Below are positions 5,001-33,249 of a stretch of 35,235 bases of DNA, piece after piece. Each line of letters begins with the position of its first letter. Position 1 is the first letter of the stretch. This DNA comes from an uncultured Bacteroidia bacterium (lineage in GTDB: Bacteria; Bacteroidota; Bacteroidia; Bacteroidales; Prolixibacteraceae), in contig CAIYPA010000209.1 in assembly GCA_903927965.1 (NCBI GenBank), positions 1-35,235 on the forward strand, in the 5' to 3' direction. Made by a program: the position numbers and the translations under genes. The notes beneath the pieces are model-generated. The model worked only from the letters and a program-made list of their open reading frames with translations. It was not told the DNA's origin and did no database searches.

Positions 5001-5189
5001 GATTTCAAAGAAAAATACTCCGAAAATGCGGATACCCAGAACAGGGAAATTGCATTCAACAAGATATTTGACGAAGTGATGTCGAAACAACGCAAAAGCG
5101 AACTCGACCTTTACCGGCTGATCGCAAAGGATGATGCTTTTAAATCGGCTATGCAGGATACTTTAAAACGGATATTGCAGGCATCGTAA
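2100..5189 (+). CDS. hsdR: Type I restriction enzyme, R subunit (HsdR)
   Basis: 1029 aa, the usual HsdR length. The N-terminal nuclease domain carries D163 and E177-L-K179, the D...ExK catalytic pattern. The SF2 translocase motor follows: Walker A HSAGSGKS near 324-331, DEAH at 439-442, motif III TATPKP near 492. Motifs V and VI are present as LTGFDQP and QSLSRLNR. In the type I complex this subunit translocates DNA with ATP and cleaves it when the methylase and specificity subunits find unmethylated sites. The ATG overlaps no upstream codon but follows the DUF4062/ATPase stop by 2 bases, so the pair is one transcription unit. hsdM and hsdS are not in the window; they may lie left of the transposase, in which case the transposase gene splits the operon. 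Confidence 0.93.
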   Translation: MPSQTNEQALESAIERRLTGTCLEDLKEQGITINSINEKAEAYRSGNGYFMGSPENFNAKFAIDEHHFWSFLETTQKEELAKLQKQNDWKRKILERLDRLIKKYGIVRLLRKGLEVDDAHFTLLYVLPLASSSETVRENFENNRFSVTRQVRYSGANQHEEIDMVLFVNGLPISTMELKNQWTGQNAKVNGQNQYKFKRDIAQPLLNFGRCLVHFVIDTDEVYMTTRLNGNDTYFLPFNLGHRFGKGNPPNPFGHKSSYLWEEVFTRQSMANIIQHFVRFDGKENDQLGKKTLYFPRFHQLDVVRKLVADASKKGVGQTYLIQHSAGSGKSNSITWAAYQLIETYPESDVVPGGRGISNPLFDSVIVVTDRRLLDKQLRDNIKDFSEVKNIVAPAYSSKELKDNLESGKRIIITTIQKFPFIVDGIADLSDKRFAVIIDEAHSSQSGSASDNLNRAMGNNGSEEDDPDPQDKILEAMRSRKMRGNASYFAFTATPKPNTLEKFGIKQEDGKFKPFHLYSMKQAIEEGFILDVLANYTTYRSYYEIEKSIAENPVFETMKAQKKLRAYVERHEQTIGTKAEIMLDHFISKIVNTKKLKGKAKAMVVTQNIESALRYFFALQRLLEEKGNPFRIAVAFSGKYKLDGIEYSEETINEFPNSMETAKPSDPGYISDKIARYFDMEPFRILVVANKYLTGFDQPKLTAMYVDKKLQNVMAVQSLSRLNRSADKLGKKTEDLFVLDFFNSTTDIRESFDPFYTSTTLSRATDVNVLHELKSSLDEVGVYEWSEVEDFVAKYFNNVNAQELSPIIDLAADRFNSGLGLDSIQKADFKIKAKQFVKIYGQMAAILPFEVIKWEKLFWFLKFLIPKLVIVDPDQDALDELLNSVDLSTYGLERVKLNESIGLDAEETELEPQNPNPRGVHGPEIDEDPLDLIIKAFNERWFQGWEATPEEQRVKFIHLAQSMRTHPDFKEKYSENADTQNREIAFNKIFDEVMSKQRKSELDLYRLIAKDDAFKSAMQDTLKRILQAS

Positions 5190-5309
5190 TTAAATAAATT
5201 AAATGACGGGGGATTTAGTTAAAACGAAGTATGAAAAAACCAGATAAGCTAAATATATATAAATAATTATAAATCAACATATTAATATTTTCAGACATCC
5301 TTTATCGTA

Positions 5310-6431
5310 TTATTTATAGATCCACCGAAGGCTCAATTTCGTTATCTGCGTAACATCCAGCCCTATTCCCTTGGTACGGTTACCAGCGCAATATCCCAAT
5401 AGTACTTCCTTTTTTGTGAAATGAATGGCTGTATAGCAGTACCAGCCATCAGGGTCAACTTCGATGTTCTTTATCTTTTCCCATGTTAACCCATCGTCTT
5501 TGGAAACAGCAATTGTCAAAGGGGTTCTTTTACCTTTGATCGCAGGATCGTCCCCGCCATTGTTGTTCCAAACCATTAACAGATCCCCGGTTGACGGAAT
5601 TCGCTTAATGGATGCAGGAGATACGGGTGATTTAATGTTGGTTGGTTCTACTGGACTCCATGTCACCCCATTGTCTTTGGAGAGAGAGGAACACTGAAAG
5701 CCAATATCGGAACGGATGATCATCAAGACATTTCCGTTCTTTAGTTCAACAATGCCGGGTTCCTGAGTCAGGTATTTATTGGGATTCTGAACTTCGATAC
5801 CTGAATTCCAGGTTATTCCATTGTCATCGGAATAATAACTCCACAAACTGCCTTGATTTAATAGTGATCCTTGAGGAGTCTTATATAGATTAACTGCCAT
5901 CAATATCCTGCCATTTTTTAATTGAATTACACGGCTGTTGTTAAGGACAAAATATCCTGATTTATCTGTTATACAGGCTATTGGTTCACTCCATGTCTTC
6001 GCCTCATCTTTCGAAAATCGCACCATCGGGATACAATCGGTCGTGGAATTTTTCTTCAAATAGAACAGGGAAATTTTCCCATTCTGCAACCGGAGAAGCG
6101 TGACAGACATTACGTTCATAGTCCCTTCGTTTTCAATGATTTTCACATCATCGCGCGACCATGTTTTTCCTCCGTTGTCCGAAAATCTCCCTGCAAGATA
6201 GGCTGGTGCGTGATCGCCACCATTGTCACCTGTATAGTGGCTGTAAATAAACAAGATGCGTTTATCTTTCAGGGTTATGAAGTCACCTTCGCTATTTCGC
6301 GGATTGTTAAGTCCCGGTTCCAGTCTCAAAACGGGTACCTTCCCCTTTTCTTCGGGTTCAGGTTTGAAGCCACTGCAAATCAACATCGCGACACACAAAG
6401 CTAAAAAAAGAATTATACCAGATCGTTTCAT
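5310..6431 (-). CDS. BNR-repeat sialidase-like lipoprotein or secreted protein
   Basis: 373 aa with a hydrophobic signal (residues 5-20) ending ...MLICSG. The lipobox is poor, so either lipidation or plain secretion is possible. Five Asp-box motifs mark a six-bladed sialidase-like propeller: SDNGGKTW, SKDEAKTW, SDDNGITW, SKDNGVTW, SKDDGLTW. The N-terminal blade reads NPRNSEGDF. The FRIP/YRIP arginine motif of true GH33 neuraminidases is not seen, so it belongs to the broad BNR_2 'sialidase family' and the real substrate is uncertain. It is the last gene of the susCD operon, 21 bases after the acetylesterase, which supports a role in trimming the same glycan. Confidence 0.8.
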   Translation of the reverse strand: MKRSGIILFLALCVAMLICSGFKPEPEEKGKVPVLRLEPGLNNPRNSEGDFITLKDKRILFIYSHYTGDNGGDHAPAYLAGRFSDNGGKTWSRDDVKIIENEGTMNVMSVTLLRLQNGKISLFYLKKNSTTDCIPMVRFSKDEAKTWSEPIACITDKSGYFVLNNSRVIQLKNGRILMAVNLYKTPQGSLLNQGSLWSYYSDDNGITWNSGIEVQNPNKYLTQEPGIVELKNGNVLMIIRSDIGFQCSSLSKDNGVTWSPVEPTNIKSPVSPASIKRIPSTGDLLMVWNNNGGDDPAIKGKRTPLTIAVSKDDGLTWEKIKNIEVDPDGWYCYTAIHFTKKEVLLGYCAGNRTKGIGLDVTQITKLSLRWIYK

Positions 6432-6452
6432 GATATTCCAATTTTCAATTAT

Positions 6453-8027
6453 CTAATTTACTATTAAGCTGAACGTTGAGGCGGGCAATCCGTAACAGTT
6501 GATCAGATTTCCACGTGAAAAAGGTCTCCATCCATATCTTACCTGCCTGATATCCTGATCGGTTTTGTTCAAAATGGTTATTTTGTTGTCTTTCAACTCT
6601 CCCGAAATAGAATAGAAAACTTCATCTGATCCAGCAGCATCGAGTTCAAGCAAAGATTGACCATCGGAAGTCTGAAGTTTCTGATCCTGATTGAAAATGA
6701 TCTCTATACTGGATTTCCCAACTCTTGTTGCTTTCAAAGGCATTGGTCCATCAGCCTTCACCGCCTGACCATAAACCTTTTGCAAGGCCTGTAAAGCCAG
6801 ACGATGGCCCACCTCCTTTTTCCGAATTGGATGTACGTTCAGCGAATCTCCCAAATCGGAGGTGACCGACATGTAACAGGCCGGTATCTCTCCTGCCATC
6901 CTTCGTTGTGAATCGCGGAACAATTCCCAGCCAGGACGCTGAATGGATGAGAGTTGCGCAAAAACAAAAGGCAGTTTGTCATTTTTCCAAAATTGCCGCC
7001 AACTCCGGATCAATTCCGGGAACACAACTTCGTGATGCTCCATGTTGTGGGCATTCGACTCCCCCTGATACCAGAGGACTCCCTTTACTGGATATCCTTG
7101 AAACCTTGAGATCCCAGCTTCAAAAATATAGGCTGGCATATATGGGTGTCTTTGCAGTAGATTGTTGCCGGATGAAATATTTGCCATTGCGCGTTGCCTG
7201 CACCACTCCATAATGAAATCGTTGCTGCTCCAGTTGTACAGGACATTTACAAGCTGGGGATGATGTTCAAGGGAATATCTGTCGATAAACGATTCGGCAG
7301 GGGCACCGCCCACTGCAACCTGTATAAGGCCAATTGGAACATGGAGGCGTTCCTTTAATTCCTTTCCGAAATGGTAGGCAATGGCGGAGAAACCTGCAGC
7401 TTCTTTCGGGTCACATTTTTCCCACGCACCTTTAAAATATTGCAATTGGTCCACTTTCTTCAAGGTTGTGGAGTCCCATTTGGTATCAGATGTTTCCGCA
7501 ATTTCCCGAAAATTCAGGAACCTTAGATTTTCGTCAAGTGCATTTTCAGACTCCTCCTTCCCATTTTGGGATTGGTCAAGCCTGAATACCATGTTCGATT
7601 GCCCGGAGCAAAACCAAACTTCCCCAACCAGAATATCGTTCCAATCCACAACGATCTGGCCATTGACAAGAATCTGCATTTTGTAGGGACCTCCGGCAAT
7701 AACCTGTGGTACTGCAAGATGCCATTTCCCATCAGGACCGGTAATAAATTGGGAGGTGATTCCGGCGAAATTCAGTTTGATACGGTCCTGGCTGTTGGCT
7801 GTTCCGGAAATTTCAACGGGTTTGTCTCTTTGTAAAACCATATGCTCCGAAAAGGCAGGTGACAGCTTAAAGCCCCCATAATTGCCCGTGATTGCCGCAC
7901 CGATTGTATTGGCAATGATCCCGGCACCTTCAATGTCGGGGTGGAGCGCATCGGCAAAAAGGTCAGGGCGCGAATACAAAGGCGTATGTAAATCAATTAT
8001 TTCCGCACCACAACTCTTAGCCACCAA
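6453..8027 (-). pseudogene. Acetylesterase, C-terminal part after a frameshift (GDSL tail + SASA domain)
   Basis: The 524 codons begin in mid-domain. The first 35 residues are the end of a GDSL/SGNH hydrolase, including its catalytic D-x-x-H block (DALHPD). After a beta-rich linker comes a complete SASA (sialate O-acetylesterase-like) domain with the nucleophile motif CSGQSNM near 140-146, WYQGESN, and a late conserved His region (HPIRKKEVGH). The matching GDSL front half is the overlapping open frame at 8017-8601. Removing one base from the run of four T at 8034-8037 joins the two frames into a protein of about 715 aa, a common GDSL+SASA layout in Bacteroidota. The family deacetylates glycans; sialic acid is only one possible substrate. 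It could be a true pseudogene, a sequencing error, or two separately translated parts. Confidence 0.75.
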
Positions 8028-8601
8028 TTTTAATTTTCTCCTGTATCTGCCAGAACCAGTCGCGTGTTCCCGATTTAAACCTTGGATGGGAATGAAAAAT
8101 CGGGGTCATGAGACAAATATAAACTTTGGGGGCTTTTCCATCCTTTGTTTTAAAGGAATGGATAAGTTCCAGGTAATCCCTGATAAAATCATCCCGGTAT
8201 TGGGGCCAGTTGCGTGGATCGGTATCGTTCAGCCCCAAATCAACAATGACAATATCAGCCTTAAATTCCAATGCCTGACGGTAAGCTTCAGATTGCACAT
8301 AGGGCCGATGACCCTTTGAGAGAAGGGTGGTGCCATTGACCCCGAAATTTCGGACAACAAAATTTTCCCCAAGAATTTTCTGAAGTTGTGATGGATAACT
8401 TTCTGTCTCTCTGTTATGCAATCCGTAACCGTAAGTGACAGAGTTCCCAATGCAAGCAATGCGCCGTGGCGAAGCGTCTACAACTTGACAAGGATCCACC
8501 TCCGCACCCAACAAATCAGGAATTGAAAAGAGCAAAAAAATTAGCAGCAATTCAAGGATTCTGCTAAATTTCAAAGATTTATGAGCTTTCTGGTCCATCA
8601 T
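8017..8601 (-). pseudogene. Acetylesterase, N-terminal part before a frameshift (GDSL domain)
   Basis: 194 aa with a signal peptide (hydrophobic residues 15-31), then a GDSL/SGNH hydrolase with block I IGNSVT (Ser54 as likely nucleophile), block II around GVNGTTLL, and block III DLGLND. The frame ends just before the expected D-x-x-H block V, which is found in the next frame at the start of the 6453-8027 reading frame. The stop codon comes from a one-base shift next to A-rich runs. Alone, this fragment lacks the catalytic Asp and His. The gap upstream to susD (181 bases) contains a palindromic repeat. Confidence 0.75.
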
Positions 8602-8782
8602 TGTACGGAAATTAGAAAGGACAAGTTAAGAAGTCCATGGTTTGTATTTTCTATAAAAAAGCAAAGAGCACAAAGATAAATTACTTTGTAGTAATTCTTT
8701 GCGCTCCTTGCGGTTTAACCCTTACGGACATTATTTATAATATTTCAACCTTATACACCACCTATATTAAATTGAATATCAA
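8602..8782. other. susD-acetylesterase intergenic gap
   Basis: No coding potential is seen. It holds the palindrome listed at 8661-8712. Transcription from susC/susD would have to cross that hairpin to reach the esterase genes. Confidence 0.6.
8661..8712. repeat. Imperfect palindromic intergenic element
   Basis: The arms 8661-8675 (GCAAAGAGCACAAAG) and 8698-8712 are complementary at 13 of 15 positions. The loop has an inner perfect AATTAC/GTAATT pair. The alternating GCAAAGAGC/CAAAG style matches dispersed palindromes scattered through many Bacteroidota genomes. Confidence 0.65.
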
Positions 8783-10348
8783 TTAATTGGCGGGTTTAGA
8801 GGTTGGATATCCAAGTGTCTGGTTCACAGTAGGATCATTTGTCCAAATCGCTTTGTCAATGGGCCATAGGATCATATAGGATTGGGTTGTCTTGTTCAAA
8901 ACCCCGAAATTATGACTTGTGGTTTTAAACACCAATGGATCTGCTCCATATTTCATGCGCCTTAAATCGTACCAGGTCTTTCCTTCATGGACAAACTCCT
9001 TCATCCTTTCGGAGAAGATGGCCAATTCGTTCTTGTCCTTGGTTGAGTTGACGAAAGGAGTTGGATCAGCAACAGGTGCAAATGCCCTGTCCCTGATTTG
9101 TTTAACATAGCTGGTAGGATCACCTCCTTCTGCATTGGCAATCTCTGCCAACATCAGCAATCTGTCGGCTTCCCGATAGATTGGCCAATCATCGGAGAAG
9201 TACCTTTTGTTGGCGTTGATTGTTCCCAGGAATTTAACAAGCGCAGTATTTCTGACGTTTATTGCATAGGGAACTTTGGTCACTTTGTAATAATCGTAGA
9301 ATGTGGCGTCACGTCTTTTATCTTTGACATCATATGCTTTAAATAATTCAAAAGTATATCCGTAACGCTGAATGATCTGCTGTGAGTTCGTTGCAGCAAT
9401 TACCAAAGGATCAACGAGCAGTGGACCGCTTGCAAGCGAATCTTTGTAATGCAGGTTGTCGAAGTTGAATGTCGAGTACAAATATTGCGATACTCCCGTC
9501 ATTTCAGCTTCACCCACAGCGTAACGAAGTGCAAAAATGATTTCATTGTTATTTTTCTGGGCAAAAGCAAAAGCATTGGCAAAACTTGATTGTAAAGTGT
9601 TGCCAGTGATTGAGTTGAGGGCAGATTTTGCGTCGGCTAAATCGGCACTTGTACCATAGACCTTTGCTGACCACAACATCACTTCACCTTTCAGCATAAA
9701 TGTTGCTTTGGGGCTCCACTGGCTTTTTTCTGCTGGACTTGCAGCGGTGCCAAAATATCCAACTGACTTTCCTACATCACTTTTAACCGAAGCAAGTGTT
9801 TCTGCTTCTGTTGATCTGGCTTTTCTCAGTAGTACAGGGTCGGTATTCCCGTTCAATACTTCGGGTTCCAAGCGAAGGGGTACACCACCATAAGTGCGAA
9901 GCAGGTGGAAATAGTAAAAAGCCCTTAATCCATAAGCCTGTCCAAGAAAATAATTCTTTTTTGCATCGGTTAGAAATGTAACTGCACTAACCTTCTGAAT
10001 AAATAAGTTTATCTGCAATATCGGACCAAACAATCCAGCCCATGAGGATATACCTGGCGAATTTTCGTCAATCCGTTGCTCGATGATCGGCAATTCATTC
10101 AACGAGGTATTCTGACGGTCAACATTGCTATAAGTTCCTCCGCGCATTTCGCCCAATCGTAAAAGCATGAACTGATTGTCTCTCAGTTGTTTATGAATTC
10201 CTACCATGAAATTGGTAACCTGAGCTTCATTTTGCCAGAAATTTCCGTCCCCAAAATAGTCTATAGGCGCAAGTTCTATCGTCTTTTGGCATGAGAAGGC
10301 GACCAATGCAAAGAAACCAGCTATTATTATGTTTTTAATCTTTTTCAT
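8783..10348 (-). CDS. susD: SusD/RagB family outer-membrane glycan-binding lipoprotein
   Basis: 521 aa. The signal peptide ends in a clear lipobox, LVAFSC, with Cys20 as the lipidation site. The following segment (ELAPIDYFGDGNFWQNEAQ) is the conserved start of SusD proteins. The middle has the TPR-like helical region, including QAYGLRAFYYFHLLRTYGGVP cut short here to LRAFYYFHLLRTYGG. The end has FVHEGKTWYDLRRM and a late LWPID. SusD caps the SusC barrel and binds oligosaccharide at the cell surface. It lies 33 bases after susC on the same strand, so the two are co-transcribed. The substrate cannot be read from the sequence. Confidence 0.95.
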   Translation of the reverse strand: MKKIKNIIIAGFFALVAFSCQKTIELAPIDYFGDGNFWQNEAQVTNFMVGIHKQLRDNQFMLLRLGEMRGGTYSNVDRQNTSLNELPIIEQRIDENSPGISSWAGLFGPILQINLFIQKVSAVTFLTDAKKNYFLGQAYGLRAFYYFHLLRTYGGVPLRLEPEVLNGNTDPVLLRKARSTEAETLASVKSDVGKSVGYFGTAASPAEKSQWSPKATFMLKGEVMLWSAKVYGTSADLADAKSALNSITGNTLQSSFANAFAFAQKNNNEIIFALRYAVGEAEMTGVSQYLYSTFNFDNLHYKDSLASGPLLVDPLVIAATNSQQIIQRYGYTFELFKAYDVKDKRRDATFYDYYKVTKVPYAINVRNTALVKFLGTINANKRYFSDDWPIYREADRLLMLAEIANAEGGDPTSYVKQIRDRAFAPVADPTPFVNSTKDKNELAIFSERMKEFVHEGKTWYDLRRMKYGADPLVFKTTSHNFGVLNKTTQSYMILWPIDKAIWTNDPTVNQTLGYPTSKPAN

Positions 10349-10381
10349 AATCCTTTTTTAAGATAATATTGTTTTTTTCAA

Positions 10382-13300
10382 TTAAAAGGTAATATCAGCA
10401 CCAAGGATCAATTGTGTTGGTATCATATAGGCACCATTTTGACTTCCGGTACGTTCTGGAAAATTCAGCATTTTATCGGTAAGATAACCGAGATTCTGCC
10501 CTGAAACTGTCAATACAAGACCCGACATCTTAATCTTCTTGAGTAGTGAAGGAGGCAATTTATAGCTCAGTGATACTTCCCTGAATGAAAGGTAATCAGA
10601 TTTTCTCCAGAACATTGTACTGGGCCTGTCATAATTTTTCGTGTTCAACTGATCGGCCCATACATACCTTGGAAGACTGGCATTTGGATTATCGGGGGTC
10701 CATGTGTCATTTACTTGAGTCGTAGGGGCAAATTCTCCCTGAAAACAACCTATGGCCCACATTTGCATCTGATCCATTTGTATATGTCCCAAAGCGTAGT
10801 CCATACGGACATTGAGGCTAAAATTTTTGTAAGTAAATGAGGTGCTTACACCACCGGTCCAACGTGGCACCTGGCGTCCAAGCGAAACCATATCGCGTGT
10901 ATCAATGGTATCGTTTTTGTCGATATCCTTCCACATCATGTCTCCCATTTGTGTTGGAATCCAGCCACCTGCAAGGTTTAATCCCCTTTGGGTCATTATT
11001 TGCTGGCTTGCCACCCTTTTCCCGGCTGAAGCACCATACCAAACTTGTCCTGCTGCCAGGTCAACTTTATTATAATTGGCCAGATCAGTCGCATTTCTGA
11101 TGATCCCTTCGCTTACAAAGCCAAATACTTCGCCCCACTCTTGTCCTTCCTGCAAACCGCCGACCCATGCCAATTTTCCGGTTCCCGGATCATAAATCTG
11201 CTGGCCATCCTGTCTGTTGTTCACATTTCCGTTGTAAGGGAGTTTGGTAACAACGTTTTTATTTCTGGATGCGTTGGCGCTAACCTGCCATTGAAAATCC
11301 TTTTTCTGGATAATTTTGGCAGTGATCTCCATTTCCAATCCAATATTTTTCATACTGCCATTGTTGGTCCTTACACTGGAAACACCTGATGAGGTGGGAA
11401 GTAGGACGCTGGCGATCTTGTCGCTTGTGATTCTATTATAATATGCAATAGATGCATAAATTCTGTTGTTTAGGAAACCCATATCGGTTCCAACTTCCAC
11501 AGTATTCGACTTCTCCCATTTAAGGTTTGGATTCGCAATACCTGTCTGCAAAAATCCAATGGTTCCGGCATAAGCGGTCTGTGAGCCATACGCACCTTGC
11601 AATTCGTAAGTGCCTATTCCACCAATATTTCCATTTTTCCCCCAACTTGCCCTTAACTTAAGATAGGAGAGCCAATCTTTGGTCGATTCCAAAAATTTTT
11701 CTTTGTGCAAAAGCCATCCCCCTGAGAATGCAGGGAAAGTACCGTATTGATTGTCACCAATTAACCTTGAATAGCCATCCCTCCTGACAGTGAAAGTAAA
11801 AAGGTATTTCCCAACATAATCGTAATTGAAACGACCAAAACCTGACAAAATTCTTTCTTCAGAATGCCATGAATCTGTTACCCTCGTTTGTGAGGTTGCG
11901 TTATTTAAAGTCAAAGCCAAATCCTGAAAATCATCGGTAGGGACAAGGGCACCATAAGCATAAGTTCCTTTGTTGAATGAATCATAGTATTCCCCACCAA
12001 TCATTGCAGATATATTGTGCTTTTCCTTGAAAGTGGCCGTATAATTGGCTATGACATTGTATGTTTGCCTGACAGTACGGTCAAAGTTGTCGGAAGCATC
12101 CCTGTTTCTGTTCCAACCGGTGTTTGGATTGGTATAGCTCATCACACCTGTCCTGAAATCCTTGTTAAACGATTCGGCAAACGATTCATCGTACATCATC
12201 AATGCACTGGCCTTTACATACAAGCCCTTCATGATATCAATCTTAAAAGCCTGGTTCAGCGTGAATTTATCCGATTGATTGCTCCTTACATATTTGTCGA
12301 TATTGTATGCCGGATTTCCATCACTGGCATCACGCCCGAGGATCAAATCCCCATTTGCGTTGGTACCACGCATGGTCGGAGGGGCTGAGAGCATTCGTGC
12401 CCAATAATTTGATTCCCCATTTTGAAGCGATTGGTCCCTCCAATTGGCTTTTGCAAACTGGACACCACTCTCTGAGGTCAACCAGTCGTTCATTTTGTAT
12501 TCCCCATTGAAAGCAAAATTTAACCTGCGGTAAAAGGTCGCCAATGACAAACCACCTTCATCATAATAACCAAGGTTTGCAAAATATTTACCTTTATCAT
12601 TACCACCGGAAAAACCAAGGTTGTAGTCCTGTGTGGCAGCAACTTTGTTCAATCCATAGTCGCCATAATTGAAATCTTTGTAAATCAAATCATAGTTAGT
12701 TCCTAAGGGGTCATAATTTCCTGAAGTATTTGTCTTAATTGGGTCTTTCATTTGCTTCCATCCCGGTTGGCTTAATAGTTCCTGATTTGTGGCATCCAAT
12801 CTCATTACACTCCAAATGGCCCTTGAATCGTAATTTCCATCCAGAATGGCACCTGTGGTTGGATCTTTGTACATATTACCTGTGCCTCTAGGCCCAACTC
12901 CGGCGACATTGCTTGCCGCCAAAGTCCCGTTTTTGATTGCCTGTTCTGCCCCAAGCCGCGCCCATTTTACATAATCGCCTCCATCGGTAAATTTATAGGG
13001 AACATTCAGGTAGTTAAAACCGTGCTTGATCTTAACAGAGATGGAAGAGGTACCCGCCTTCCCCTTTTTGGAGGTGATCAGGATGACACCGTTGCTTGCC
13101 CTTGCCCCATAAATTGCTGTAGCTGAGGCATCTTTCAATATCTCCATACTTTCAATTTCCTCAGGATTGATATCGCTCAAAGAACCGCGGATCTGACCAT
13201 CCATAATGATAAGCGGGCTACCACTACCATCAAAATTGGTACCTCCCCTTAATATAATGGTTGGAAGTGCCCCAGGTCTTCCTGTTGTGGTTGACACCCT

Positions 13301-14597: not shown

Positions 14598-14852
14598 GAA
14601 TAAAAGCATAAAGGTAAAATTGAAAACTTGCCTAGATATTACTGGCAACATCTTTAAATACTTAATTTTTAATGCTTTTATAAATACTTTTTGATTGTAA
14701 TAAACTATATTATAGCATATTATGAGATAGTTTCTTTCGAGTCCAAAAATACGGGAACCACATATTAAAGTGATTAGGGATTCCAAAAAATGTTGAACTA
14801 AAATTATTTGAAGAAAACTGACAATAGTTGGTCAATCCCAAAAAAAAGTACT

Positions 14853-14860
14853 TAATTTTG
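14853..14860 (+). promoter_or_regulatory. -7 box for the yefM/yoeB operon
   Basis: TAATTTTG lies 21 bases before the ATG at 14882, with a TTGG about 22 bases upstream. It argues against an upstream start at 14828, which would precede the promoter. Confidence 0.5.
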
Positions 14861-14881
14861 TACTGTTTTATATGTATGATC

Positions 14882-15139
14882 ATGAAAGCTGTAAATTATT
14901 CGGAACTAAGACAAAATTTGAAAAGCAGTCTTGATGCTGTTACAAACGATGATGAATTGTTGGTTGTTCACCGTCCGAAAGGGAAAAGTATCGTTATGAT
15001 GCCTTTGGCAGAATTCAACTCACTTCAGGAGACCTATTATCTTAACCGAAGCAAGGCAAACCGTCAGCGGCTCGAAGAATCTATTGAGAACATCACCAAC
15101 AAAAGCAACCTGCTAAGCAAAACACTTATTGAAAAATAA
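14882..15139 (+). CDS. yefM: YefM/Phd family antitoxin
   Basis: 85 aa from the ATG at 14882; an ATG two codons earlier (14876) is also possible. The N-terminus MKAVNYSELRQNLKSSLDAV and the following LVVHRPKGKSIVMMPLAEFNSL are the dimerisation/DNA-binding fold of the YefM antitoxins. The C-terminal tail binds the toxin. The length is close to the 83 aa of the E. coli protein. It represses its own operon and neutralises YoeB; the toxin gene starts 2 bases after its stop. The open frame extends upstream to 14828, but that start precedes the promoter box and adds an unconserved leader. Confidence 0.9.
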   Translation: MKAVNYSELRQNLKSSLDAVTNDDELLVVHRPKGKSIVMMPLAEFNSLQETYYLNRSKANRQRLEESIENITNKSNLLSKTLIEK

Positions 15140-27039: not shown

Positions 27040-27972
27040 ATGTTAAACTACAGATATCAGTTAGAGCAGTATAACGGGCCTGCAACCCGGTTTCTATGCC
27101 CAAAATGCAAGGATACCAGAAAGACATTCGTACAATACATTGATAAAGAAACTGGTAAACATGTTAATCCATTGGTTGGGTGCTGCAATCGCGAATCGAA
27201 ATGCGGTTATCATTATCCCCCCAGGGAATATTTCAAAGATCAAAATATTGAAGAAAACCTTTTCCTGCACAATTATCCAATAGCGTCACCCGAACCCAAA
27301 ACTCCCTCTTTCATCCCGAAAGATTTGATGAAGAAAAGTTTATTAAATTTTGATCAAAACAACTTTATTAAATTCCTGATCAAATTGTTTGGAATTCAGA
27401 TTATTAATGGTTTGATTGAGAAATATTGCATTGGCACATCAAACCATTGGCATGGGGCAACCATATTCTGGCAAATTGATATAGAGGGAAAGATCAGGAC
27501 CGGAAAAATAATGCTTTACAACGCCGTAACCGGTAAAAGGTTAAAGGATACCCACAACAATATCCATTGGGCACACAATACCAACGGGAAAACGGACTTC
27601 GAGCTTCAGCAGTGTTTATTTGGTGAACATCTTTTGCATGGTAACTTCAAGCCGATAGCAATCGTAGAGAGTGAAAAAACCGCCATTATTGCCAATATTT
27701 ACATGCCACAGTTTATCTGGTTGGCAACAGGTGGGCTTTCAAATCTAACAGGTGAAAAGTGTATCAACCTCAAGGGTCGGTCTGTAACCCTGTTCCCAGA
27801 TTTGAACGGTTTTGAAAAATGGAACCTGAAACGGAAAGAATTATCTCACAAAATACCCGGTACATGCTTTAAGATATCCAAACTTCTGGAAAAGAACGCA
27901 ACAGAGAAGGAAAGGGAGGAAGGTTGTGACATTGCAGACTATCTGTTGAAATTGGATCCGAAATCGTTTTGA
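27040..27972 (+). CDS. DUF6371-like Toprim/zinc-finger protein
   Basis: 310 aa. The N-terminal region has a likely zinc site, C20-P-K-C23 with a second cluster CCNRESKCGYHYPP at 48-61. This is like the CHC2-type fingers of primases. The C-terminal half has Toprim-like motifs, the acidic IVESEKTAIIAN and LFPDLNGFEKW, and ends with DIADYLL. Proteins of this kind (DUF6371) are common on conjugative and integrative elements of Bacteroidota and are thought to be primase-related. Here it stands alone after repeats and a pseudogene fragment, so it may be a remnant of an older mobile element. It converges with the next gene, 7 bases apart. Confidence 0.7.
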   Translation: MLNYRYQLEQYNGPATRFLCPKCKDTRKTFVQYIDKETGKHVNPLVGCCNRESKCGYHYPPREYFKDQNIEENLFLHNYPIASPEPKTPSFIPKDLMKKSLLNFDQNNFIKFLIKLFGIQIINGLIEKYCIGTSNHWHGATIFWQIDIEGKIRTGKIMLYNAVTGKRLKDTHNNIHWAHNTNGKTDFELQQCLFGEHLLHGNFKPIAIVESEKTAIIANIYMPQFIWLATGGLSNLTGEKCINLKGRSVTLFPDLNGFEKWNLKRKELSHKIPGTCFKISKLLEKNATEKEREEGCDIADYLLKLDPKSF

Positions 27973-27979
27973 AATACAC

Positions 27980-29845
27980 TCATTCCGCCTTTTTTATGTT
28001 TAAGAAGTACTCCTGATATAGGTTAACGTATCTTAGATAGGTAGTTAAGGCATTGTATGTTTTCCTGATTTTAATTCTTGTTTTGACCTTTTCAGCAGTA
28101 ATTAAATCGATATCAGTGGCCAATTCAGCATCCTTGTAAAATATGTTGCGTTTAAAGAAAGGGATTTCTCTTTCATTGGGTATTTTTTCAATACAATTTA
28201 GGATCTTGGGAAATCCTAGAATCCTACTCTGGAACAGGTTTGAGATGTTTAATATTTCTCCTTTATCGTTCCGTTTTCGAACGCTTTCTGTTAAAATCCC
28301 TTTTAAGGCTTCCCTGTAAAGCACCCTGTCCTCAAAACCCATTATCATATATTTGGTGGGAATGCTAAACCAAAACTCCAAAAGATCCTTATCCAAAAGC
28401 GGATATCGGTACTCAAATCCATACTTTTCACCATAGATTAGCCATGAATCGATTCGGTCTGGAATATGGTAAAAGCCAATCAGATTATACATCAGTTGTT
28501 TATAACCAAAAAAACTGAAAACAGTTTCCCTTTTATGGAGAAGGATATTTTTCAGGTTTCGAATGATAAAACCATTTTTGAAATAGCGCAGGTGGGACCA
28601 TCTGAATGGACCATAAGAATGTAAAAGGCCAAATGGAACAATTGCAGGCAATACCTCCACACGGAACAGTAGGATTGACGATTTTACACCGATTTTCAAA
28701 ATGAATTCTGCCAACGAAATCCACTTTAACCTATAAAAAAGATGCCCAAAAATGCCACGCTTCCCTGATGATACAAATTCATCCCCTCCCCAACCACTAA
28801 AAAGAACCTTAACTTGATCTTTTTCGGCCATTTTCATAGTAGGGTGTTCCAAAAATTGTGTTTCAAAATCTGGGAGGGTATAGTTACATAGCAGTTCGGC
28901 ACTATCATTGTCACGAACGAATCTAACACTTATTCCCCTCTCTTCGGCGAAATTGGTGATGTACTTTTTTTCATCTTCACCTTTAATCAGATGACCTTTG
29001 AATTCTGCAGGTGACCAAGAATACCCAATGACTCTTTGTTTATCATTCAGGTAATCGTCAAGAATACATCCTATTCCTGTTGAATCCAACCCACCACTAA
29101 TATGTACGCCAATTTTGCCATCCGTAATCCGTGATTTTGTTGCTTCTATTATTTTGGCCCTCAATATAGAAACTGTATCTTCAAATGAAAGGGAATGATT
29201 GGTTTTAATTCGTTCCGGCCTCCAATATTTATACGACCTGCTTTTCGAATTTGAAAAAGAAATGCAATGGCCGGGGGTAAGTTTTTCAATTTGATCAAAG
29301 ACAGTCAGTGAGTAGCTGCCCCAGAGACAGAAAATCCTTTTAATGACAGTTTGTTCGGATAACCTTAGCTGAAATAAACCTGATTTCGCCAAACCAAACT
29401 CATGGGTAGCAAAAATCAATTGTTTCCCATTAAAATGATAAGCCAATGATCTTCCACCAATGTGATCCCTAAAAAGATGCACTTTTCGTTGTTCTTCATC
29501 TATGATCACAACGGCAAAATCACCATTTAAATAATTTCCACACTCAAATCCCTTATCAAGATAGACACTTAAAAATGTTTCCGCCACTGTATTAAAGCGG
29601 TATTCTTCCTTCAACTTATGCATATTGTAAAGACGAATATCTGCAATAATTGTCAATTGCCTGAACCTATAAATCTCTACAGTTGGTTTGAGCATTGGAT
29701 TCCAACAGCATCCAACCGAGAAAAAACCTCCTGAAATAATGCTGTCTTTAAATCCTTTGTTCCTCATGGCATTAGAGAGGCAGTCAATGGAGCATCTCTC
29801 AACCGGACGACTGTCAAAATTGACAATGCCAAAAATAAAACCCAT
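27980..29845 (-). CDS. Asparagine-synthetase-like ATP-dependent ligase, lasso-cyclase type
   Basis: 621 aa. The N-terminal class II glutaminase fold is recognisable (NGDFAVVIIDEEQRKVHLFRD near 107-127, cut here). The start is M-G-F-I-F-G, so the catalytic Cys2 of AsnB is replaced by Gly and glutamine hydrolysis is not expected. The synthetase half keeps the PP-loop SGGLDS (250-255) and SGWGGDE (350-356), so carboxylate adenylation is likely intact. Lasso-peptide macrolactam synthetases (C proteins) have this combination. It is the last gene of a minus-strand operon, downstream of a 38-codon peptide with a lasso-type leader and its terminator. A role in activating an acidic side chain of that peptide is inferred. 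An asparagine-synthetase-related enzyme of other purpose remains possible. Confidence 0.8.
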   Translation of the reverse strand: MGFIFGIVNFDSRPVERCSIDCLSNAMRNKGFKDSIISGGFFSVGCCWNPMLKPTVEIYRFRQLTIIADIRLYNMHKLKEEYRFNTVAETFLSVYLDKGFECGNYLNGDFAVVIIDEEQRKVHLFRDHIGGRSLAYHFNGKQLIFATHEFGLAKSGLFQLRLSEQTVIKRIFCLWGSYSLTVFDQIEKLTPGHCISFSNSKSRSYKYWRPERIKTNHSLSFEDTVSILRAKIIEATKSRITDGKIGVHISGGLDSTGIGCILDDYLNDKQRVIGYSWSPAEFKGHLIKGEDEKKYITNFAEERGISVRFVRDNDSAELLCNYTLPDFETQFLEHPTMKMAEKDQVKVLFSGWGGDEFVSSGKRGIFGHLFYRLKWISLAEFILKIGVKSSILLFRVEVLPAIVPFGLLHSYGPFRWSHLRYFKNGFIIRNLKNILLHKRETVFSFFGYKQLMYNLIGFYHIPDRIDSWLIYGEKYGFEYRYPLLDKDLLEFWFSIPTKYMIMGFEDRVLYREALKGILTESVRKRNDKGEILNISNLFQSRILGFPKILNCIEKIPNEREIPFFKRNIFYKDAELATDIDLITAEKVKTRIKIRKTYNALTTYLRYVNLYQEYFLNIKKAE

Positions 29846-29889
29846 TTTGTCGAACTTTTATGACATTATTGAACTTTCAGGCACCTAAT

Positions 29890-29929
29890 AAAAAGAAATC
29901 ACTGGAACATGATCCAGTGATTTCTTTTT
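29890..29929 (-). terminator. Strong hairpin between the precursor peptide and the synthetase gene
   Basis: Two 16-base arms, 29890-29905 and 29914-29929, are perfectly complementary around an 8-base loop. On the minus strand the stem ends in TTTTT followed by ATTAGG. It lies 11 bases after the peptide stop and 44 bases before the synthetase start. Partial termination here would make far more peptide message than enzyme message. Confidence 0.85.
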
Positions 29930-29940
29930 GATCCAAATAT

Positions 29941-30057
29941 TTAGGAAAAGCTAGTTCCATTCTCCACTAAACCAAGATCTTTCTGTGTCCTGTTCAAATC
30001 CAAATCTACAATCTCTGGCTTTTTCCACTCTTTTTTTGTTGTTGATTCTTCGTACAT
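29941..30057 (-). CDS. Candidate RiPP precursor with lasso-type leader (38 aa)
   Basis: A short gene of 38 codons, ATG at 30057. The leader contains KKEWKKPEIVDLDLNRT (8-24). This fits the W/Y-x-x-P-x-(L/I)-x-x-L-D-x-x-x-T pattern of lasso precursors, notably the paeninodin type (KKEWxKPxLxxLDVxxT). If Thr24 is the usual penultimate leader residue, the core is K26-S38 with Glu32 as core residue 7, a possible macrolactam acceptor. A 13-residue core is short, and the first residue would be Lys, not Gly. It lies 54 bases after the formyltransferase-like gene and before a strong terminator and an Asn-synthetase-like gene, the classic place for a precursor. No RRE or B2 protease gene is seen nearby. 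The leader match and context are seen; the product class is inferred. Confidence 0.65.
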   Translation of the reverse strand: MYEESTTKKEWKKPEIVDLDLNRTQKDLGLVENGTSFS

Positions 30058-30111
30058 CGTTTGTAATTTTTAAGTTGATAAAAAGGTTGTTATGGCAACT
30101 TCAAACTATTG

Positions 30112-31059
30112 TTACCTAATTGATTCTATTTTTATTTCAGAAAAATCTTCGAATGAATGACCTATCTTAAAGCCCAGTTCTGCCAAGCAATAAGCCGGAA
30201 AGTAGCTGTCCATGAAATACAGCATATTTATTTCAACAGCGTTGCTTCCATCACAGCATTTTACTTTTAGCATATCTCCTAATGCGACCATTGTGCCTGC
30301 AGTGTCGTTGTCCTCATTAATCACAACACGAGCATCAAGAATCTTCACCTCCTGACCTTTGTAAAAAGTAAGTGCACCCTTGTTCCAGGGATTGCAAGCT
30401 TTTACCAAGGAGCAAATTTCTTGTGCCTTCATACTGTTCCAATGGACCAGCACATCCTCCATTTTTGGTTTTGAATGGTAGGATGGAACGCCCCCTTTGC
30501 TTTGGATTTCAAGCACAGGAAGCTTTTGCAGCATAAGACTCAGTAGGAAAAAGACTCCTTCTATACAAATATTTCCGAAAAGCTGCTCGACATATTTGTA
30601 GTTAAAATAATCTTGGTTGTCGATTTCCTTGTGCCAAACAATTGAGCCATCGTCAAACTTTGAAGTTAGTCGGTGAATAGACAAGCCTAATTTCGGGATT
30701 CCTTGTTTCAACTGCCAAAAAACAGGTGTAGGCCCCTTAAATTCAGGCAGCAATCCAAAGTGGACATTGAAGAGTTGGGAACCATATCTTTTCAGTACAT
30801 CTTCTCGTATCAGTTTCGAATAGCCCAAAACAAAGCAGGCATCTAATTTTGAATCAGTTATCCATTTGTAAAGATTGTGGCTATGGTCATCCTCCTGTAC
30901 CATCGAAAACTTTGAAATCTTTATGTAGTGTTCCACTTTTTGGTTGATATAGGCATCAGGTGAACGTGAAAAGAACAGGTACACTTGTTGTTGTTGGGCA
31001 ACAAGCGCACCTGCCAATGGGATAAATAAGTCAGAGTTGGATATAATCCCAATCTTCAT
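30112..31059 (-). CDS. Formyltransferase-fold enzyme (Fmt-like)
   Basis: 315 aa. The N-terminal formyl_transf_N domain has the catalytic triad in the right spacing: N98-V-H100 in FNVHFGLLPEFKGPTPVFW, and D136 in KFDDGSIV. In E. coli Fmt the same residues are Asn109, His111 and Asp147. The C-terminal half resembles the OB-like domain of Fmt or sugar formyltransferases. It transfers a formyl group from 10-formyl-tetrahydrofolate to an amine. The housekeeping Fmt is normally next to def, which is not the case here. Its setting between tail-collar genes and a peptide precursor suggests a dedicated, non-tRNA substrate such as an amino sugar or a peptide amine. That is inference. Confidence 0.75.
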   Translation of the reverse strand: MKIGIISNSDLFIPLAGALVAQQQQVYLFFSRSPDAYINQKVEHYIKISKFSMVQEDDHSHNLYKWITDSKLDACFVLGYSKLIREDVLKRYGSQLFNVHFGLLPEFKGPTPVFWQLKQGIPKLGLSIHRLTSKFDDGSIVWHKEIDNQDYFNYKYVEQLFGNICIEGVFFLLSLMLQKLPVLEIQSKGGVPSYHSKPKMEDVLVHWNSMKAQEICSLVKACNPWNKGALTFYKGQEVKILDARVVINEDNDTAGTMVALGDMLKVKCCDGSNAVEINMLYFMDSYFPAYCLAELGFKIGHSFEDFSEIKIESIR

Positions 31060-31085
31060 AAGACTAATTGGTTCAACATAAAATA

Positions 31086-31631
31086 CTAATCACGTGTTGG
31101 AAATATTCCCGCGGTACAAATAATAAAGTTGATTGCTTTCGAAAGCATCATGTTGTTATGGGGTTGTCCACCACCAATAAATGGATGTATAACGCTATCA
31201 TCCAATACTTTTTTTGTACCTGCCGAAACATTGCTTACATAACCAAGGCCTGTTTGTCCTTCAACAACAACAGGTCCAAGATAGGTAGCTGGAGTAGGAA
31301 CGGCAACTGATGCAGTTGTTGACATGCTTGCTTTGATAAGATGGGTGTGGACTGGTGTTTCTGGAACGACCAATCCTGCGGTTTCTGTCCCTCCTTTAGC
31401 TCCTATTGGTTTTGGGGTAAGTCCAGGACCTGTTCCCAGGCCAATTGGCAGCCGGCCCCTTAAATCCGGAACGGCAAAAGTTGTCGATCCATTGCCACCA
31501 TATGTTGTACCAATCAAAGCATAAAGTGCATTGTATTGAGCAATGTCAAGAACACTCCCATCGCAAAAAAGCCAGTTCACAGGTGCGAAAGAACCTGCAA
31601 ATATTTTTATTTCACCTAAAAATGGATCCAT
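31086..31631 (-). CDS. Tail-collar domain protein, MdpB-like (third of three)
   Basis: 181 aa. The phage tail collar domain spans residues 6-58: GEIKIFAGSFAPVNWLFCDG, then LYALIGTTYGGNGSTTFAVPDLRGR (quoted in part). The middle part has the conserved HTH segment before a variable beta region and a final NFIICTAGIFPTRD. Bacteroidota and cyanobacteria carry such 'microcystin-dependent protein' genes in tandem, away from phages. The function is unknown; the fold belongs to receptor-binding tail fibre tips. It is closest to the formyltransferase gene, 26 bases away. Confidence 0.85.
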   Translation of the reverse strand: MDPFLGEIKIFAGSFAPVNWLFCDGSVLDIAQYNALYALIGTTYGGNGSTTFAVPDLRGRLPIGLGTGPGLTPKPIGAKGGTETAGLVVPETPVHTHLIKASMSTTASVAVPTPATYLGPVVVEGQTGLGYVSNVSAGTKKVLDDSVIHPFIGGGQPHNNMMLSKAINFIICTAGIFPTRD

Positions 31632-31665
31632 ATTTTACTTTATTAAAGGTTTTTAAAAGCAATTG

Positions 31666-32193
31666 TTACGGCCTTGAAGGCCAATTTCCGTTAAGCGCTA
31701 TGCAATAGTTGATTACTAAAAATGGTTGCATGTTTGCATGGGCTATATTTCCACCTGCGCTATCCAACATGGTGGGAGCCAAGGTCGTTTTATTATTTGT
31801 ATCCGTACTAAAAAGCTTTGCCGTTACGGTTGCATCGGATGATGTTGGAATGGCAATTCTGTTGGTCGGAATACCTGCAGCGCCAGGTAGGTTGGCAACC
31901 TCAAATTCGTGTGTGTGGGCAGGAATGTTGTTTGTTGTGAGGGCAACAGTTTCTGCTCCAGCCTTGGTACCCATTTTATAGTTCGGATTTGCATTGTTTG
32001 CTCCAACAATGCACCTGCCCCTTAAGTCGGGAAGAGCAAAATTTGTCGTTCCGTTCCCGCCATAAGTTGTCCCTATCAAGGCATAAAGTGCCTGATATTG
32101 GGGTATTTGAAGTACTGTCCCATCACACAGATGCCAGCCGGTAGGCACAAAGCCGAAAGCAAAGGGGCGAATTTCTCCTATATAATTATCCAT
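31666..32193 (-). CDS. Tail-collar domain protein, MdpB-like (second of three)
   Basis: 175 aa. It is a paralogue of both neighbours. The collar domain GEIRPFAFGFVPTGWHLCDG is followed by QYQALYALIGTTYGGNG, and the end is NYCIALNGNWPSRP. The first 60 residues are strongly conserved among the three copies, whereas residues 90-150 diverge. No signal peptide is seen. It is separated from the others by about 23-34 bases, so all three are in one operon. Confidence 0.85.
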   Translation of the reverse strand: MDNYIGEIRPFAFGFVPTGWHLCDGTVLQIPQYQALYALIGTTYGGNGTTNFALPDLRGRCIVGANNANPNYKMGTKAGAETVALTTNNIPAHTHEFEVANLPGAAGIPTNRIAIPTSSDATVTAKLFSTDTNNKTTLAPTMLDSAGGNIAHANMQPFLVINYCIALNGNWPSRP

Positions 32194-32216
32194 AGTATTG
32201 TAGTTTTACTTGATTG

Positions 32217-32783
32217 TTAAGGTCTTTCCGGATATTCCCCTTCCGCACAAATGCAGTAGTATAGAGTGGTAAAAGGAGATCTGTTCTCGTGAGCTGCTAC
32301 GGTTGTTGCTCCAACAACGGAAACGGAATCATTCTTTAAGAGTACTGCATTAGTTAGAGGATCAACATATCCATTTAAAGCTGTTTTGACTCCTGCACTA
32401 TTTTTGGCAGCCATATTGCCCAAAAAGGAGGATCCCGGAACAGGTGCATTTGAAAAATTGGCCTCTGGCAATCCAACATAACCATTCACATTGTGGTCGT
32501 GGGTAGGCATGTTCGAATTTGTAAGGATTACAGATTCTGCACCAATTGCAGCCCCGTTATCGAGCCGGGGTGTCAGACCCTGACCCGGTCCGACTCCAAT
32601 TACAGCATAAGATCTCAAATCCGGCACTTTGAAATTAACTTGATCTCCACCATACTTTGAGCCAATAATGGAGTAAAGGGCCTGGTATTGCTGGATACTT
32701 CGCAATTGACCATCACAGGGAATCCATTCCGGGGGATTGTACCCAAAAGCGAATGCCCGAATTTCACCGATAAGTCCATCCAT
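32217..32783 (-). CDS. Tail-collar domain protein, MdpB-like (first of three)
   Basis: 188 aa. The collar domain GEIRAFAFGYNPPEWIPCDG is followed by QYQALYSIIGSKYGGD, and the end is YYCICAEGEYPERP. It is the first gene of the six-gene minus-strand operon that continues through the formyltransferase, the peptide and the synthetase. No convincing promoter was found in the AT-rich sequence upstream. A weak -7-like GAACTTTG lies about 30 bases before the ATG. Confidence 0.85.
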   Translation of the reverse strand: MDGLIGEIRAFAFGYNPPEWIPCDGQLRSIQQYQALYSIIGSKYGGDQVNFKVPDLRSYAVIGVGPGQGLTPRLDNGAAIGAESVILTNSNMPTHDHNVNGYVGLPEANFSNAPVPGSSFLGNMAAKNSAGVKTALNGYVDPLTNAVLLKNDSVSVVGATTVAAHENRSPFTTLYYCICAEGEYPERP

Positions 32784-33124: not shown

Positions 33125-33133
33125 CATTATCAG

Positions 33134-33196
33134 CGGAGAGAGTGGGATTCGAACCCACGGTACCCTTTTGGAGTACACACACTTTCCAGGCGTGCT
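33134..33196 (-). other. 3' fragment of tRNA-Ser(GGA): prophage attachment site
   Basis: On the minus strand this contains the anticodon arm (CACGC-CTGGAAA-GTGTG, anticodon GGA), the long variable arm, the T-arm GTGGGTTCGAATCCCAC and the acceptor 3' strand TCTCTCCG. The 5' acceptor strand and D-arm are missing; unrelated AT-rich sequence replaces them from 33197. A 3' tRNA copy of this kind is left when an element integrates into a tRNA gene. The intact gene should lie at the other end of the element, right of the window. Confidence 0.85.
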
Positions 33197-33249
33197 AAAT
33201 CTGTGTTTAAATAACTATATATTAATACATTAACTACTATGAAAGATGG

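Follow-up and report, generated by a model that had tools for sequence, protein, structure and literature searches.

Can a lasso peptide be made from an operon that encodes a precursor and a cyclase but none of the leader-processing proteins, and what are three phage-tail-like collar proteins and a formyltransferase doing beside it? These questions are raised by six close-set genes in the window, by which we mean the whole 35,235-nt stretch of DNA analysed here. All six ORFs delineated in the initial annotation were found; they occupy the minus strand from 27980 to 32783, with intergenic gaps of 23, 34, 26, 54 and 95 bp. In the direction of transcription, the features are:

33133–33200, minus strand: 3' fragment of tRNA-Ser(GGA), a probable att site and boundary mark outside the operon
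32217–32783, minus strand: collar 1 (PF07484), HxH site HDH at residues 95–97
31666–32193, minus strand: collar 2 (PF07484), HxH site HTH at residues 93–95
31086–31631, minus strand: collar 3 (PF07484), HxH site HTH at residues 95–97
30112–31059, minus strand: formyltransferase (FT) of Fmt/ArnA-like fold, presumed catalytic N98-H100-D136 retained
29941–30057, minus strand: lasso-type precursor (gene A), 38 residues, predicted core KDLGLVENGTSFS
29890–29929, minus strand: 17-bp hairpin with five U closing its 3' arm, between precursor and cyclase genes
27980–29845, minus strand: lasso-cyclase-type Asn-synthetase homologue (gene C), 621 residues, no Cys2, SGGLDS ATP motif

The operon ends convergently at 27980, as had been stated, with a DUF6371 gene ending 7 bp away, and the AT-rich gap described ahead of 32783 contains the att-like tRNA-Ser 3' fragment. 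Promoter and terminator scans gave hit numbers at about chance level. The earlier observation that B1 and B2 are missing was borne out: no gene for B1, B2 or the kinase lies anywhere in the window. With neither B1 nor B2 encoded in cis, the operon comprises a lasso-type precursor and cyclase, not a complete cluster.

Both leader and core support the initial identification of the 38-codon peptide as a lasso-type precursor. The leader carries WxxPEI, with Trp at −15, Pro at −12 and Thr at −2, and so follows the paeninodin-like pattern [Y/W]xxPx[L/V/I] plus Thr −2; the core ends in Ser, as do all nine precursors compared, and in the deduced register has its acceptor, Glu7, within the span (positions 7–9) in which Asp or Glu is expected. 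The boundary of KDLGLVENGTSFS was placed by the W−15/T−2 register shared with the precursors of a second lasso cluster in this genome (contig C91) and of three other formyltransferase loci (L020, L052 and L084), and W(−15)..PEI.DLD..T(−2) has the same spacing in all five leaders. Departures from this register were seen in L054 and L085 (Trp −16), L029 (Trp −16 and Lys −2) and L053 (no Thr −2). In the portion of PMC13381572 consulted, B1 contacts leader position W−15 in the PbaA–PbaB1 complex. The curated precursor model NF033524 gave 13.2 bits against a cut-off of 27; the L084 precursor scored 16.3, and those of C91 and L020 gave no match at E 0.1. The precursor matches that of L020, encoded at the same gene position (E 3e-5 in a small ORF set), and the degenerate pattern WxxPE[IV].D occurs three times in the 7.57-Mb genome versus once in a reversed control; the two lasso precursors account for two of these three occurrences. 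This match and the rarity of the pattern indicate that the peptide is more than a chance ORF.

The neighbouring gene, first described as an Asn-synthetase-like ligase, encodes a homologue of lasso cyclases, with GATase_7 and Asn_synthase domains and 41–42% identity to both C91-cluster cyclases and the L020 cyclase. Its best NCBIfam model, NF033535, gave 158.7 bits, below the cut-off of 525, as did the C91 lasso cyclase (160.5) and the L052 cyclase (170.2). The two domains would also suit an enzyme that uses a free amino acid, the peptide gene being incidental, but its N-terminus (MGFIF) lacks the nucleophile Cys2, its aligned relatives are cyclases from precursor/B1/B2 clusters and the precursor leader is conserved, which makes such an activity extremely improbable.

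A search of the rest of the genome, as the initial annotation had suggested, located both B1 and B2. Contig C91 carries them in a complete lasso cluster, which supplies the two proteins missing from the operon and also encodes an HPr-kinase-like protein, a sulfotransferase, a nucleotidyltransferase and an ABC transporter. The C91 B1 (RRE) passed PF05402 (75.4 vs 23.4) and just missed the lasso-specific NF033536 (76.9 vs 80), while B2 (leader peptidase) passed NF033537 (56.8 vs 33); the kinase fell below PF07475 (23.4 vs 33.3). The C91 precursor leader is very similar to that of the operon. We favour, with a probability of roughly two-thirds, a satellite lasso operon that is matured in trans and carries a collar–formyltransferase module. 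The C91 B1 would bind the W−15/P−12 leader motif and the C91 B2 would cleave after Gln−1; the operon's own cyclase would then activate Glu7 with ATP and close the ring on residue 1. The terminal Ser of the core may be a substrate of the C91 kinase, and the product would be exported by the C91 transporter.

Residue 1 of the predicted core is Lys rather than the usual Gly, Ala, Ser or Cys; Leu and Trp are further residue-1 examples among lasso peptides. An excerpt of PMC12670498 names Gly, Cys, Ser and Ala as observed examples and adds Asn; since Asn1 has been reported, the usual residues are not strictly defining. Lys1 lies outside the residues named there, and because residue 1 would be Lys, the main rival to maturation in trans is decay, in which a once-complete collar–lasso cluster has lost its kinase, sulfotransferase, B1 and B2 and the product is no longer made. 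B1, B2 and the kinase, missing here in cis, are present in all seven other lasso loci that carry the module. The DUF6371 gene 7 bp from the cyclase stop belongs to a family that we take to be one of mobile elements, and L020, with a truncated B2 and a cyclase fragment, offers a precedent. However, the six ORFs are intact, the cyclase ATP-site motifs, the FT N-H-D, the collar HxH and the precursor C-terminal Ser are all retained, and B1, B2 and the kinase are at hand on C91. A strong hairpin also follows the precursor gene: the region 29880–29945 folds at −24.8 kcal/mol (z −6.3). We regard decay as unlikely. The hairpin itself (29890–29929), a possible attenuator, does not appear in the terminator scan output; hairpins after the precursor are clear in this operon, C91 and L054, and weak or absent in L020, L052 and L084.

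The collars score on PHROG tail families, and a gene for an M15 endolysin is found on the same strand roughly 1 kb upstream, as might be expected if the collars served the adjacent prophage as tail fibres and the remaining genes were its cargo (a moron). However, the att-like tRNA-Ser fragment, 349 bp upstream of the operon, separates it at 33133–33200 from the endolysin side; the operon is on the far side from the prophage and not between att sites, and contig C258, which would join the operon contig through the prophage, carries the intact tRNA with an integrase gene after it. The tRNA-like stretch was matched by two Rfam families that share the T arm; these are among eight Rfam matches, every one below its gathering score, and the others look like chance. 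A scan of viral contigs with two peptide patterns returned 22 matches and no confirmed relative, and the same module stands beside lasso genes in seven other loci. Because of the att-like fragment, the integrase side on C258 and the lack of a confirmed viral relative, prophage cargo was rejected as highly improbable. The label 'phage-fibre-type', given to the collars at the outset, holds by homology, but the operon is positioned beyond the att site and the viral scan confirmed no relative.

FT carries Formyl_trans_N and Formyl_trans_C domains, and N98, H100 and D136, which we take to be the catalytic Asn-His-Asp, are invariant in 12 of 12 aligned sequences. Its fold matches Fmt and ArnA equally. 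It is co-linear with the ArnA model (50–275 vs 53–276), has 8 residues fewer than Fmt before the core (61–269 vs 69–277) and falls below both curated cut-offs, with 94.8 versus 201.5 bits for the Met-tRNA formyltransferase equivalog TIGR00460. The genome's true Fmt is encoded separately on C226 (272 bits), and the possibility that FT is an Fmt duplicate was therefore rejected. Lasso-linked formyltransferases and that of L083 form one clade (99/95). Fifteen records matched in the Phages collection, with identities of 21.9–26.8% and one annotated Fmt among the 10 listed; 125 matched in Plasmids, the 15 listed being 14 Pantoea ArnA and one Spirosoma collar–FT locus.

The proposed co-occurrence of collars and formyltransferase proved widespread, a collar gene lying within 3.5 kb of FT in 33 of 36 loci; the HMMs behind this and the other counts over the 36 loci were built partly from these same loci. 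The others are L021 (two collars about 6 kb from FT), L022 (one collar at 3.8 kb, truncated by the end of the contig) and L066 (a contig of 6.5 kb); L057 has its collars on the opposite strand. A lasso cyclase is present in 8/36 loci, and seven of the eight have B1, B2 and the kinase in the stretch, the exception being this operon. The order of three collars, FT, peptide and cyclase recurs in L020, from a same-family genome. That the precursor always lies between FT and cyclase held for five of the seven other lasso loci (L020, L052, L054, L084 and L085, with further genes intervening in three) and failed for L029 (from the cultured species Sediminibacterium ginsengisoli) and L053, where it follows the cyclase. 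In the order survey, B2 was found in 5/6 FT-positive versus 39/387 FT-negative genomes (Fisher p 7.8e-5), a value that is indicative only because some of the same loci went into the B2 profile, the operon's own genome is among the five and the genomes are related.

In 25/36 loci, FT and collars occur with no lasso gene within stretches of 5.3–20 kb, and six of the eight FT-linked lasso cores lack lysine. These sequences point to the collars, and not the peptide, as the partner of FT. A dedicated RiPP formylated by FT would fit the Lys in this operon's core and the adjacent FT and peptide genes, but the lysine-free cores and lasso-free loci led us to reject the peptide as FT substrate, and the α-amine is needed for the ring; we consider such a product very improbable. 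The original proposal of amine formylation around one peptide is thus not supported, while the lasso precursor, cyclase and gene order of that interpretation stand.

The three collars scored 98.8, 98.0 and 73.7 bits on PF07484 (cut-off 24). A tree was built from 45 selected collars, all of which (45/45) keep the HxH metal site of the trimer axis; the site aligns with that of T4 gp12 (1ocy). In five loci, position-2 collars form a clade (99/98), as do position-3 collars (98/95), and position-1 collars group only weakly (84/80); collars of L029, L053 and L054 depart in places from this pattern. Since each position has its own lineage in these five loci, the collars are likely to form a heterotrimer. 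A monomer model (pLDDT 62) was too poor for structure search. A conserved collar lysine as FT substrate was rejected: among 25 collars from lasso loci and L083, no alignment column retains lysine throughout (at best 6/25).

Within the satellite operon that we favour, the three collars would combine, in the manner of T4 gp12, into a single heterotrimer centred on metal and provide a binding element located at the cell surface or beyond it. FT would work with the collars and not on the lasso peptide; we guess that it most likely modifies a small amine, for instance an amino sugar in a collar-bound glycan. More speculatively, and with rather little confidence, the secreted or surface-held, metal-knitted heterotrimer might bind a glycan of a target or of the cell itself and present or aim the lasso peptide, with FT tuning glycan or collar chemistry, as a phage-fibre-derived targeting element domesticated by RiPP systems; in other loci, the collars might then present or aim a large T9SS-linked protein.

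Across Bacteroidota, a phage-fibre-like protein set is repeatedly accompanied by a formyltransferase of its own, with one clade tied to lasso clusters. If this link is functional, it would add a new class of protein partner to lasso biology, and the operon offers a clean test case of whether one B1/B2 set can mature a precursor encoded far away, at a second locus. In the literature searched, 'lasso peptide' was not found together with 'tail collar', and in the two papers listed where it co-occurs with 'tail fiber protein', each term is mentioned once. 'Formyl' does not occur in the main text of PMC9266682 or PMC8498205, nor 'formyltransferase' or 'collar' in PMC13381572.

As far as the parts of PMC9266682, PMC8498205 and PMC13381572 consulted describe them, paeninodin-type (kinase-containing) clusters share with the operon the WxxP leader at −15, Thr −2 and the C-terminal Ser, and their separate B1 and B2, HPr-kinase-like protein, nucleotidyltransferase and sulfotransferase are matched by the C91 cluster. 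Unlike them, the operon has B1, B2 and the kinase outside it, adds three collars and FT, and has a predicted Lys1. The predicted ring has 7 residues, as in xanthomonin-type lasso peptides, whose context is different. With T4 gp12 and other phage tail collars, the operon collars share the PF07484 domain and the HxH site; unlike gp12, operon-type collars are 172–195 residues long with the domain at the very N-terminus, and one to three of them lie together on the chromosome, outside the adjacent prophage. FT shares its fold and N-H-D with the ArnA N-terminal domain and Met-tRNA formyltransferase, from which its sub-threshold scores, its shorter pre-core region than that of Fmt and the presence of a separate Fmt in the genome set it apart. 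Finally, L083 recalls the LPP/signal-peptidase RiPPs in the excerpted text of PMC13381572: close to its collars and FT are a peptide with a YxxP leader, a signal peptidase of the archaeal type and a nucleotidyltransferase. L083 adds a radical SAM enzyme, whereas a cyclase and a WxxP leader are found in the operon instead.

The six minus-strand open reading frames reported in the initial annotation were recovered when ORF positions were rechecked. Pfam detected a Collar domain in the first three proteins (98.8, 98.0 and 73.7 bits; cut-off 24), Formyl_trans_N and Formyl_trans_C in the fourth, and GATase_7 with Asn_synthase in the sixth.

27980-32783, minus strand: collar genes 1, 2 and 3, formyltransferase (FT), 38-residue precursor peptide and cyclase, with gaps of 23, 34, 26, 54 and 95 bp
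27040-27972, convergent with the operon: gene for a PG0870-type zinc ribbon and DUF6371 protein, ending 7 bp from the cyclase stop
33133-33200: 67-nt 3' end of a tRNA-Ser

The interval between peptide and cyclase holds a 17-bp hairpin (fold z −6.3), which we infer to be an attenuator; it was not among the calls of a terminator scan of the window. In an alignment with nine further cyclases of the lasso loci, which it matches over its whole length, the window cyclase retains SGGLDS and GWGGDE and lacks Cys2. Its NF033535 score of 158.7 (cut-off 525) does not set it apart, because the cyclases of L052, another FT locus, and of C91, a second lasso cluster in the same genome, score close to it (170.2 and 160.5).

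The peptide scored below cut-off for both the paeninodin leader (NF033524, 13.2 bits; cut-off 27) and PqqA (12.7 bits; cut-off 21.1). The leaders are EWKKPEIVDLDLNRT in the window and IWQKPEIIDLDMNAT on C91; a degenerate leader pattern gave three matches across the genome, two of which are the window and C91 precursors, and its reversed control gave one. With the register set by Thr at −2, Trp falls at −15 in the window, C91, L020, L052 and L084 precursors and at −16 in those of L054, L085 and L029, the last carrying Lys instead of Thr at −2; the L053 precursor lacks this Thr, and its core has no assignable start. Excerpts of PMC13381572 describe Trp−15 in the leader of PbaA in complex with its B1 (the PqqD-like RRE protein) and a nearly invariant Trp among paeninodin-like precursors, and Thr−2 is described as conserved, with Ile or Val as rare exceptions, in an excerpt of PMC10368454. 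In the inferred register, the cores run K1...E7 (window), G1...E8 (C91 and L085), S1...E9 (L020), S1...E8 (L052 and L084), G1...D8 (L054) and G1...E7 (L029). Lys as residue 1 of the window core is unusual; Gly, Cys, Ser and Ala are examples of observed first residues, and Asn is also reported, in the excerpted text of PMC12670498. All nine precursors end in Ser, a known kinase target according to excerpts of PMC9266682 and PMC8498205. Trp−15/Thr−2, Glu7 in this register and the terminal Ser bear out the initial assignment as a lasso-type precursor, and by homology the cyclase is lasso-type as well.

Relatives were collected with FT as bait. At 1e-20, only the window's genome and G046, from the same family, matched among 199 relatives. 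A genome-contig collection gave 10 loci; a phylum sample (n = 395) gave 21 genomes at 1e-35, of which all 20 non-self neighbourhoods were taken in, two of them on contigs of just 5.3 kb and 6.5 kb; an order sample (n = 393) gave six at 1e-50, three of them new; and one plasmid locus was added, the final set comprising 36 FT loci. The co-occurrence search proposed initially placed collars within 3.5 kb of FT in 33/36 loci (23 loci with three, 6 with two and 4 with one, against 3 with none). A lasso cyclase gene is present in the stretch in eight (the window, L020 of G046, L029 of Sediminibacterium ginsengisoli, L052, L053, L054, L084 and L085), and 25 combine FT and collars in a stretch free of lasso genes. 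L020 has the window's order (collars 1-2-3, FT, peptide, cyclase), followed by methyltransferase, kinase, sulfotransferase and B1 genes. The collar–FT–peptide–cyclase unit is real and conserved. L020 also contains a truncated B2 (leader peptidase) with a C-terminal cyclase fragment (1114-2067) and a second B2 (14614-15069); its kinase and sulfotransferase genes are duplicated.

Seven of the eight lasso-cyclase FT loci also encode B1, B2 and a kinase, whereas the window has none of the three, in agreement with the earlier observation that B1 and B2 are missing from the operon. The end of the DUF6371 gene might mark where a kinase-to-B2 block was lost. Searches of the rest of the window's own assembly (7.57 Mb, 584 contigs, the window being C209), as proposed initially, located both proteins on C91: with the window cyclase as query, two paralogues, 43% identical, were found there, with B2 (PF13471) and B1 (PF05402) genes between them.

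Gene order of the C91 lasso cluster (L006)
6239-6385: precursor
7346-9163: first cyclase
9712-10542: HPr-kinase-like protein (Hpr_kinase_C 23.4 bits, below cut-off 33.3)
next: sulfotransferase
next: PqqD/B1 (NF033536 76.9; cut-off 80)
next: B2 (NF033537 56.8; cut-off 33)
after B2, in this order: second cyclase, ABC transporter, NTP_transf_5

The cluster thus carries two cyclase genes, and between its precursor and the first of them lies an interval of about 960 bp (6386-7345) that contains no sizeable ORF. Maturation of the window precursor in trans by the C91 enzymes is the best explanation, at a probability of roughly two in three. In the order sample, B2 occurs in 44/393 genomes and FT in 6/393, five having both (G000, the window's own, G435, G591, G604 and G859); the Fisher p of 7.8e-5 is only indicative, since these loci were included in the profile used for B2, the window's genome is among the five and the genomes are related. 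B2 was not found at 1e-10 in the sixth FT genome, G674 (82% complete).

The three collar genes of the genome are all in the window (E 0.01). For the window, L020, L052, L084 and L083 (the G674 locus), collars form clades by position (position 2, 99/98; position 3, 98/95; position 1, weaker, 84/80), and these position-wise clades suggest old, specialised subunits, not recent copies. Of the L053 collars, those at positions 1 and 3 alone fall into these clades; in L029 and L054, collars 1 and 2 cluster separately. HxH is present in all 45 collars chosen for the tree and aligns with that of the T4 gp12 tip (1ocy); according to excerpts of PMC6116203, six histidines form a site on the trimer axis of pyocin fibres, and gp12 has zinc at its HxH. 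No lysine was conserved among 25 collars from the lasso loci and L083. Their monomer model was poor (pLDDT 62), which could reflect a fold that needs a trimer.

The FT model (AlphaFold2, pLDDT 87.6) matched Fmt (3tqq) and ArnA (5j63) equally in Foldseek (TMq 0.82 each). In profile coordinates FT runs co-linear with ArnA; compared with Fmt, it lacks 8 residues before the core, in the region that bears the tRNA-binding loop of Fmt. The genome's proper Fmt is on C226. Since FT and collars stand without lasso genes in 25/36 loci and 6/8 FT-linked lasso cores contain no Lys, the peptide is no general FT substrate, and the amine formylation around one peptide suggested initially was not supported. 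Our guess for the substrate is an amino sugar.

An intact tRNA-Ser(GGA) on C258, followed there by an integrase gene (L098, C258:36000-52000), ends in exactly the sequence of the tRNA-Ser fragment. Beyond the fragment, G+C is 49.5%, versus 42% for window 1-25000, and an M15 endolysin gene was the sole PHROG match among five ORFs scanned there. One prophage appears to span C258 to C209, split over two contigs, with the operon just outside it. A viral-contig scan with two FT peptide patterns gave 22 matches, none confirmed.

The second common form of the module (20/36 loci: L023-L028, L030, L058-L065 and L067-L071) combines collars, a Peripla_BP_6-like protein and FT; a 100/100 branch splits these FTs from the lasso-linked ones, which with L083 form one clade (99/95). 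No signal peptide was seen by eye on the Peripla_BP_6-like proteins of L024-L027, and a 952-1523-residue protein follows the module in L025, L026 and L027. In L055 and L056, one collar and FT precede a 2426- or 2054-residue protein, followed in L056 by PorP/SprF (T9SS, 183 bits). On the Spirosoma oryzicola plasmid (L103:7309-14572), three annotated 'tail fiber protein' genes precede a 'formyltransferase family protein' gene, followed by a gene of 4.5 kb that encodes a cellulose-binding-domain protein. Genes for an Asp/Asn beta-hydroxylase and Sulfotransfer_3 adjoin the L053 lasso–collar locus (3633-5315); similar proteins are encoded close to the L024 collars and, by eye, those of L021, two loci without lasso genes.

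In the openly licensed PMC literature, no paper joining 'lasso peptide' and 'tail collar' was found, nor was 'phage tail protein' in a related search; no title or abstract start in the collar-term literature concerned lasso peptides, and none of the matches listed joined lasso peptides or RiPPs with formyltransferases or collars. This absence is weak evidence, because the coverage was of openly licensed papers only. 'Lasso peptide' and 'tail fiber protein' do co-occur in two papers, each term being mentioned once per paper. The window operon is best read as a split lasso locus carrying a collar–FT module. The collar triplet and FT of L083 (36-6617) have as neighbours a YxxP leader peptide whose tail contains Cys, a radical SAM enzyme, NTP_transf_5 and a signal peptidase of archaeal type (TIGR02228 53.2; cut-off 51.85), and lasso genes are absent from the 15.8-kb contig; this gene set recalls the LPP family as outlined in excerpts of PMC13381572.
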